Below are positions 13,051 to 15,249 of a stretch of 64,000 nt of DNA, piece by piece. This stretch comes from Fimbriimonadaceae bacterium (GTDB lineage: Bacteria; Armatimonadota; Fimbriimonadia; Fimbriimonadales; Fimbriimonadaceae). Under the pieces are notes generated by a model. It had not been told where the DNA came from. It saw only the letters and a list, made by a program, of their open reading frames with translations, and did not search any database. The stretch is from assembly GCA_019187105.1 (NCBI GenBank), contig JABAQM010000001.1:1488001-1552000 (forward strand). Direction: 5' to 3'. Both the position numbers and the translations under genes were made by a program. The number at the start of each line of letters is the position of its first letter. Positions within the stretch are counted from its first letter, which is position 1.

Positions 13051-13152
13051 GTATCAGGAACTCCCTTGTCCACAGCTTGGATGAGGGAGTGACTGATCCT
13101 CAAACCGGTCTCCAGAAGGAACGAATCGTCGGTTTTCGACGATAATATGGGT

Positions 13153-13599
13153 ATGCGATCGATCCTGAAGATCTCTCTCGGCGCGGCCATACTCGGCGCG
13201 TCACTCATGGCAAACGCCGGCGGAGAAGGCTGGCTCACCGACTGGAACGAGGCCGTAAAGCAGTCGAAGAAGACCGGCAAGCCCATCCTCGCCGATTTCA
13301 CCGGCTCGGACTGGTGCGGCTGGTGCATCAAGCTCAATAAGGAAGTTTTCTCGACCAAGGAATTCAAGACCTGGGCCGCGAAGAATGTGATTCTGCTCGA
13401 AGTCGATTTTCCGAACAGCAAGCCGCAGTCCGACAAGCTGAAGAAGCAGAACGATATGCTGCAGAAGAAGTTCAACATCGAGGGCTTCCCCACGATCGTC
13501 TTCATGAATGCTTCAGGCAAGGAAATCGGTCGCTCCGGCTACAAGGAAGGCGGGCCCAAGGCATGGACCTCTGACGCCGCCAAAATCATCAAGAAGTAA
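13153..13599 (+). CDS. Secreted thioredoxin-like protein with CGWC motif
   Basis: The product of 148 residues starts with a signal peptide (about 1-22, ending LMANA). It has a thioredoxin fold with DWCGWC as the redox motif (C at about 50 and 53) and the cis-proline segment GFPTIVF. It matches the thioredoxin_7 / DUF255-like group that reduces periplasmic or secreted substrates. The ATG at 13153 is preferred over 13147 because TAATAT (13143-13148) would be a -10 box 4 bases upstream and overlaps the earlier ATG. The neighbours do not name a substrate. Confidence 0.83.
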   Translation: MRSILKISLGAAILGASLMANAGGEGWLTDWNEAVKQSKKTGKPILADFTGSDWCGWCIKLNKEVFSTKEFKTWAAKNVILLEVDFPNSKPQSDKLKKQNDMLQKKFNIEGFPTIVFMNASGKEIGRSGYKEGGPKAWTSDAAKIIKK

Positions 13600-14010: not shown

Positions 14011-15249
14011 CTACTTGCGCAGATAAACCCAGACGAAGCCCGTTGCCTCGGGCTGCGCTTCTAGCTTTCCGATTTCGGTGTAGAGCTTGCTCTGGCGGTT
14101 AGCGTCGATCTTCATAGCCTTGATCTGCTTGTCGTATTCCGTCATCAAGGCCTTCTGGTAGCTCTTTGCTTTCTCGGGAGTTAGATTGCGGGAGCTCTTT
14201 TCACCGATCGACTTGAGAGCCGCTTGGTCTGCCTTCTGGTAAGCCGCGTTGTATTTCTTCTGAGCTTCCTCCATCTCCTTCTTCAGCTTGGCCAGGCGCG
14301 ATTTCTCGGCGGCGGTTAGCTTCTTGGGGATGGCGGCGATTTGCGTGAAGTCGCCGAGAAGGAGGTCCAGCTTGCCGTCTCCGTTCCAGTCGGCTGCGAA
14401 GGGCTTGACGCGAACGCCTGGTCGCAAGGTCTTCATGCCGCCCGGACCTTTCGGGTCGCGCTCAACCGGCTTCCACGCTTCTTCCTCTTTCTTAATCGGG
14501 AGCAGAGCCTGCGCGGCGCCGAGATCGAGCTTCCCTTTCTCCTTCCCAGGGTACAAGTGGACGTTGCCGGCAGCGTCGCCGATCAGAAGGTCGAGGATGC
14601 CGTCGCCATTCCAATCGACAATGCACGGCCCGCCGTCGTTGGCTGCCAGCGGCTTGCCCTCGGCCGTGAAATCACCTGCCTTGGTGAAGTGGCCCTTGCC
14701 ATCGTTGATCATAAGCCGGATCGGTCCAGAGATTTGGCCGACTGCCATATCCGCATCGCCATCGCCGTCCCAGTCGCCGCCACAAGGCGAAAGGGCGAGC
14801 TCATGACTCTCATAAGCGACGTTCTTGGCAATGAGCTTGGATTCCTTATCGAACTTCCCTTTACCGAGGCCCTTGAAGAAGGAAACTCCGCCGCTATACG
14901 AGCCGGAAATCAAGTCTGCGATGTTGTCGCCGTCGAGGTCCACGAACCGTGGAACCGCGCCGATGCATCACCCAGACTCGACGGTGACTTCTTTGCCGTC
15001 GGCCTTGACGGTTTCGAAGCCCGAGAATTTCGGCTGGCCGGCTACGCCGACATTACGATAAAGCCGAATCACGCCTGGACTGAACGTCCCGACAACAAGA
15101 TCCTTCAGACCATCTTCGTCAAAGTCGTAAAGGATGGGGGCCAAGTGTCCGACCGGCGCCTGAATAGGCTTGCCATCGGCTTCTGCTAGAAAGGGCTCGT
15201 GCAGGTCGCCTGAAGCGACGGTGAGCGCGAGAGCAGCGAAGAATATCAT
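14011..15249 (-). CDS. Secreted FG-GAP/VCBS-repeat protein with in-frame UGA (candidate selenoprotein)
   Basis: Read through one TGA (14970-14968), this frame encodes 412 residues. It has a signal peptide (about 1-14), then FG-GAP/VCBS-type repeats with DxDxDG calcium-loop motifs: DFDEDGLKDLVVG, DLDGDNIADLISG, DWDGDGDADMAVG, DWNGDGILDLLIG and DWNGDGKLDLLLG. A Lys/Glu-rich coiled coil follows (about 300-390). The second repeat begins right after the TGA. The codon after it is TGC, so readthrough as selenocysteine would give a Sec-Cys pair (ESG-U-C-IGAVPRF). Both halves keep the same frame and show no other lesion. A good Shine-Dalgarno (GGAGGT, 6 bases before the ATG) is present. A SECIS-like hairpin lies at 14937-14956. 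Alternatives are a nonsense mutation of a Cys codon (pseudogene) or two separate peptides; the only start for the second (GTG 14943) has no ribosome site. No sel genes are in this window. Confidence 0.72.
14937..14956 (-). promoter_or_regulatory. Candidate bacterial SECIS hairpin
   Basis: On the minus strand, counting the U of UGA as 1, bases 15-17 (GGU) pair with 32-34 (ACC), U18 bulges, bases 19-22 (CCAC) pair with 28-31 (GUGG), and the apical loop is GGUUC (23-27). From established knowledge, the E. coli fdhF SECIS has GGU at 15-17, a bulged U at 17/18 and a GGUC loop at 22-25 that contacts SelB. The match in position and shape is close. The element is only 20 bases, so chance cannot be excluded without relatives. 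Confidence 0.6.

Follow-up and report, generated by a model that had tools for sequence, protein, structure and literature searches.

An in-frame UGA followed by a conserved hairpin points to a widespread family of extracellular beta-propeller selenoproteins

An in-frame UGA and the hairpin downstream of it

Does an in-frame UGA end a gene of a Fimbriimonadaceae bacterium (Armatimonadota), or is it read as selenocysteine (Sec)? We examined this question in a 64,000-nucleotide stretch of contig JABAQM010000001.1 (assembly GCA_019187105.1, positions 1,488,001 to 1,552,000 of the forward strand), hereafter called the window, in which positions 14011 to 15249 of the minus strand hold a gene of 412 codons plus stop for an FG-GAP-type beta-propeller with a predicted N-terminal signal peptide. 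Codon 94 of this gene (14968–14970) is UGA, at a conserved codon position, and its translation as Sec gives the motif G-Sec-C-I-G-A-V-P; the minus-strand sequence from the UGA onward, starting at 14970, is TGATGCATCGGCGCGGTTCCACGGTTCGTGGACC. Standard gene calling splits the gene at the UGA into two truncated open reading frames; reading through the UGA yields a single 412-residue protein, with homology and FG-GAP repeats on both sides of this codon. As argued below from comparison with relatives, the UGA at 14970–14968 almost certainly encodes Sec, directed by a selenocysteine insertion sequence (SECIS) hairpin inside the coding sequence. In the mechanism that we propose, SelB with Sec-tRNA-Sec would be directed to the UGA by the hairpin at positions 15 to 34 (14937–14956), counted from the U of UGA as position 1. 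The wider explanation, in which Sec at the UGA and the SECIS are joined with a secreted propeller carrying a Sec-Cys site, we consider very likely.

The layout of the hairpin, taken from its sequence, fold, and comparison with relatives, is GGU at positions 15 to 17, U at 18, CCAC at 19 to 22 (14949–14952), a GGUUC loop at 23 to 27 (14944–14948), GUGG at 28 to 31 (14940–14943), and ACC at 32 to 34. These are exactly the bases and positions given for window 14956–14937 by an earlier sequence-only reading of this DNA, which had proposed a SECIS resembling that of Escherichia coli fdhF. CCAC forms the 5′ arm and GUGG the 3′ arm of the upper stem, which is conserved. When the 25-nt core is folded as RNA, this hairpin is predicted at −10.4 kcal/mol. 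As a membership test, we used the published criteria for bacterial SECIS (bSECIS) elements, namely an apical loop of 3 to 9 nt, an upper stem of 4 to 16 bp, a G within the first two loop positions, a UGA-to-loop distance of 16 to 37 nt, and a minimum free energy of −7.5 or lower (PMC13188914, Fig. 2A). The window hairpin falls within every one of these limits: the computed fold has 5 pairs and a 3-nt loop, the alternative with the GGUUC loop has 4 pairs, the UGA-to-loop distance is ∼19 to 20 nt, and one of the first two loop bases is G. Rfam at its gathering threshold found no SECIS in the 64-kb window, a result that we did not count as contrary evidence because bacterial SECIS elements vary widely and are short.

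On its own, the window hairpin is unremarkable and amounts to weak evidence. Among the 1704 TGA trinucleotides of the window, 3.8% are followed at the same offset by a fold of equal or greater stability, and 4.6% by a stem of at least 7 pairs. An equally stable hairpin after ∼4% of window UGAs is what speaks for the rival explanation that the UGA truly stops translation or is a mutation that disables the gene, in a pseudogene or through a sequencing error, and that the hairpin arose by chance. Since single-sequence statistics do not exclude chance, the question is settled by the relatives, through conservation and covariation.

Conservation of the UGA and covariation of the stem

We searched 101 genomes of the same phylum with stops read through. 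The Armatimonadota homologs are ∼34 to 65% identical, and nearly all contain exactly one TGA. The UGA lies at the identical codon position in 18 of 20 homologs, the remaining 2 having a Cys codon there, and the site motif is G-U-C-[IV]-[GA]-x-x-P (U, Sec). The genome that contains the window has a second copy of the family, ∼40% identical, with the UGA motif AGUCVGMTP (L045, 1779–3014; G000:C1:888778-890004, minus strand). In Planctomycetota (294 genomes), we obtained 105 strong matches in 80 genomes (27%), with exactly one TGA in 101 of the 105. UGA members were also detected in WOR-3, Fermentibacteria/Aegiribacteria, Fibrobacterota/Chitinivibrionales, and one Lentisphaerae metagenome-assembled genome (MAG), and the family spans at least five bacterial phyla. 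In Verrucomicrobiota, the UGA was present in only 1 of 12 matches, and the others may be ordinary FG-GAP proteins. Across the phyla with UGA members, the UGA and the hairpin occur together in 93 distinct homologous sequences. The recurrence of the UGA at this codon across many phyla, in 93 distinct sequences with intact homology downstream, refutes a genuine stop or disabling mutation when taken with the Cys homologs at this site and the covarying stem, both described below, and we give that explanation practically no weight.

We compared the stem in these 93 UGA sequences and in 16 Cys sequences. C20-G30 is present in all 93 UGA sequences and C19-G31 in 92, with U-G in the other one; pair 22-28 is Watson-Crick throughout (C-G in 92, U-A in 1). 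Pair 21-29, which corresponds to window positions 14950 and 14942, is the one that covaries: it is A-U in 59 sequences, G-C in 23, U-A in 2, C-G in L017 only, G-U in 4, and C-U in 4, and so appears in all four Watson-Crick forms. It is Watson-Crick in 85/93 sequences, compared to a mean of 49.3 and a maximum of 65 in 20000 shuffles. In a tree of the proteins, supported branches gave 12 independent A/G pairs, with a mean of 9.7 matched changes of base 29 and 0 contrary ones (sign test, p 0.002).

These data also bear on whether the hairpin is a selected RNA structure or simply a consequence of a conserved protein motif, P-[QR]-x-[VAG]-D. The codons for Pro, Gln/Arg, Val/Ala/Gly, and Asp do fix C19, C20, mostly C22, G28, and G31, but the bases that the protein leaves free are constrained as well: wobble base 21 matches base 29 far beyond the shuffled sequences, and wobble base 30 is G in 93/93 UGA sequences, with pair 20-30 kept in 2/16 Cys sequences. 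Base 21 is a silent Pro wobble position, and base 29 falls at the second position of a codon for Val, Ala, Gly, or Glu (with a shift of one codon in a few members). Since the amino acid at the base-29 codon changes in step with the silent base 21, a constraint on the RNA is the best explanation, and an origin as a by-product of the protein motif is extremely improbable.

The other features of the hairpin are shared to different degrees. A G occupies one of the first two loop positions in 87/93 UGA sequences, and the bSECIS ranges for loop and upper stem hold for 87/93. The near-invariant family core is UCC-N-C ... G-N-GGA with a 5-nt loop; U18 pairs with A32 in 84/93 sequences, and 34 have a straight 7-bp stem. 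The GGU/ACC lower stem and the bulged U at 17/18, which the window copy shares with E. coli fdhF, are restricted to 4/93 sequences (L015-L018), namely the window copy and three of its close relatives, and are absent from the remaining 89. We thus rejected the fdhF-type bulge as a trait of the family; of the resemblance that had been claimed, the lower stem and bulged U stand for the window copy, and the loop G is a family feature. The sequence-only reading had also held that the bulge and loop match made chance less likely. What excludes chance is the covariation. That reading had suggested aligning TGA homologs and looking for compensatory changes in the stem, which we found at pair 21-29, and it had named as contrary outcomes a lack of the hairpin in UGA relatives or uncompensated stem variation. 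We found the hairpin retained and the changes matched.

Cysteine homologs and the Sec machinery

Exchange of Sec and Cys at one alignment column is a classical signature of selenoproteins. The full-length exceptions to the UGA that we examined (L021, L031, L143, L147, and L148) all have Cys (TGT/TGC) at the site and were found by homology with no filter on the site. L052 also has Cys at this position, and further homologs with C-C occur in records from Bacteroidota and Gammaproteobacteria. The five full-length exceptions show the motifs G-C-C-I-G and Y-C-C-V-G. A protein tree of 108 members requires five changes between U and C, and in these five independent contrasts the hairpin tracks U, not C. 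In the 16 Cys homologs the protein motif is similar, and pair 21-29 is Watson-Crick in 1. All published bSECIS criteria, applied to the 25-nt core, hold for 63/93 UGA sequences versus 0/16 Cys sequences.

The window genome encodes a tRNA-Sec with anticodon UCA, SelB (355 bits), and SelA (444.6 bits). Its selD is itself UGA-containing (motif AGUASK; L198, 1501–2409; G000:C1:1769561-1770469, minus strand), and since this is a known type of selenoprotein, UGA-Sec decoding appears to be used in this genome by a known selenoprotein too. SelB scored over the cut-off in 58 of the 101 related genomes, including every one of the 15 that carry the UGA. In the other phyla, SelB was over the cut-off in 13 of 17 UGA carriers, present as fragments in 2, and not found in 2.

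The machinery also bears on whether the UGA might be read as Cys or Trp, through a suppressor tRNA or a changed code, instead of as Sec. Variant tRNAs that insert Cys at UGA exist, and the homologs do carry Cys at the site. However, a canonical tRNA-Sec, SelA, SelB, and SelD are all present, SelB occurs in 15/15 related UGA carriers, the SECIS hairpin accompanies UGA and not Cys codons, and the other window genes examined read without an in-frame UGA. Decoding as Cys or Trp is thus very improbable. With UGA relatives that keep the hairpin, stem changes that are compensated, Cys homologs that lack the hairpin, and the Sec machinery in place, the SECIS interpretation of the sequence-only reading is upheld.

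A predicted propeller with a Sec-Cys site

The window protein scored 94.5 bits with Pfam FG-GAP_3 (cut-off 26.9), and we predict a calcium-binding FG-GAP beta-propeller of five blades. The AlphaFold2 model, built with 23 homologs (predicted local distance difference test score [pLDDT], 89.7), has an N-terminal hydrophobic helix followed by propeller strands that bear five DxDxDG loops, then a helical hairpin, and last a closing strand. The putative signal peptide covers residues 1 to 14 (15208–15249), with its hydrophobic helix at residues 2 to 11. The calcium-type loops are DFDEDGLKD in repeat 1 (15100–15126), preceded by a conserved Gly34-His35; DLDGDNIAD in repeat 2 (14914–14940), directly after the Sec-Cys loop; DWDGDGDAD in repeat 3 (14749–14775); DWNGDGILD in repeat 4 (14590–14616); and DWNGDGKLD in repeat 5 (14365–14391). 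The helical hairpin insert is predicted at residues 313 to 396 (14062–14313), before the last propeller strand. All of these lie on the minus strand.

Sequence-based matches in the PDB were a secreted esterase, CRTAC1, integrins, and the PVL lectin. The protein shares its DxDxDG calcium-type repeats and beta-propeller with FG-GAP/VCBS-type proteins (Pfam PF13517 and PF01839; CRTAC1, integrin alpha, PVL lectin), from which it differs by having five repeats, the Sec-Cys, and the helical hairpin insert; integrin and PVL propellers have seven repeats. By structural comparison, the best matches were five-bladed propellers, the GH43/GH62 glycosidases (Z 19; root mean square deviation, 3.1 to 3.5 over ∼240 to 265 residues). 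Their identity is 8 to 13%, a likeness of architecture only, and we did not adopt glycosidase activity for the family. Members carry N-terminal signal-like segments, a lipobox-like Cys (L023 and L024), or a tail of the type IX secretion type, signs that the proteins are probably exported, to be secreted or held at the surface.

In the predicted structure, Sec94-Cys95 lies in the loop that joins blade 1 to the inner strand of blade 2. The equivalent loop of integrin propellers is on the ligand face, and by analogy Sec94-Cys95 may sit on the corresponding face. We propose that this pair would be the active site, where it could form a reversible selenenylsulfide or bind a soft metal. Redox chemistry at Sec-Cys is our tentative assignment and may well be wrong. 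That the UGA encodes Sec but the Sec-Cys binds a soft metal, a metalloid, or another ligand instead of acting as a redox catalyst is possible, if rather unlikely. The presence in Armatimonadota of a conserved His35 at an equivalent place before blade 1 fits such binding (by sequence, His35 and Arg280 occupy corresponding positions where blades 1 and 5 begin), as do the further Cys at +3/+5 in some subfamilies and the ligand-binding lectins and integrins among the nearest solved propellers. However, His35 does not stay conserved when the other phyla are added to the comparison, and most characterized selenoproteins are redox proteins (PMC13188914).

The Sec-Cys pair itself varies little. One Planctomycetota sequence (L168, near 480) has URVG, with Arg after Sec and an intact hairpin, and is the sole exception to Sec-Cys among the 93. 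Members L158, L161, and L176 and their relatives have the motifs WUCTSSTPQ, TUCISFCPQ, and VUCTQFCPQ, the last two with an extra nearby Cys; these subfamilies possibly have a different chemistry.

Known prokaryotic selenoprotein families share with this one a single Sec per protein, Cys homologs, and hosts that encode SelA/B/C/D (PMC13188914). The 2026 inventory (May 2026) of 119 such families, which includes those of Haft and Tolstoy 2025, lists none as FG-GAP, VCBS, or beta-propeller and none with a vicinal [G/W/T/S]-Sec-Cys motif (PMC13188914). NCBIfam release 20 (June 2026) has no family-specific model, and in the full text of the open-access literature we found no report of this family, although an unseen report is possible. 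The decoding mechanism is standard; what is new for Sec, as far as we have checked, is the protein family with its fold and motif. The window gene thus probably belongs to an undescribed, very widespread family of extracellular selenoproteins in which Sec-Cys is carried by a calcium-binding beta-propeller, a scaffold for which no Sec had been listed.

Since standard gene callers truncate these genes at the UGA, ordinary annotation probably misses the family, common as it is. If our reading is correct, the family is often present in multiple copies per genome, may rank among the main uses of Sec in Armatimonadota and in Planctomycetota, where 27% of the sampled genomes have a strong match, and may perform new extracellular redox or metal chemistry. 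It would add a secreted calcium propeller, in both fold and cellular location, to the current list of prokaryotic selenoproteins, and would provide a large and clean data set for SECIS evolution, with ∼10 compensated changes in which the amino acid follows the RNA pairing and five Sec/Cys contrasts. In one contig (L073), five family UGA motifs are arranged in tandem, near 692, 2087, 3466, 4782, and 6181, and all four genes that we read completely carry a sorting-type tail at the C terminus.

Several points weigh against the explanation proposed here. Sec incorporation is inferred from comparative evidence, and function from fold and residue conservation only. Most Cys homologs were chosen by a Cys-Cys pattern, which partly builds in the conservation of their second Cys. 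Pair 21-29 is C-U in four Planctomycetota sequences, where the pairing could be rescued if the register shifted and a U bulged out. The UGA carriers L053 and L087 (G103 and G115, both MAGs) are without SelB over the cut-off, and two more MAGs have fragments only. In these four, the missing or fragmentary SelB is likely due to incompleteness; for L053 and L087, incomplete bins, contamination, or degraded Sec use may each be the cause. Finally, neither the window locus nor the neighborhoods of relatives hold an operon with a telling partner.

The genomic neighbors encode GltX, HisD, a thioredoxin-like protein, and a DUF503 protein, and indicate no function. We note that the thioredoxin-like protein (Thioredoxin_7; window 13147–13596, plus strand) is encoded on the opposite strand, near the selenoprotein gene's 3′ end, and could be a redox partner.
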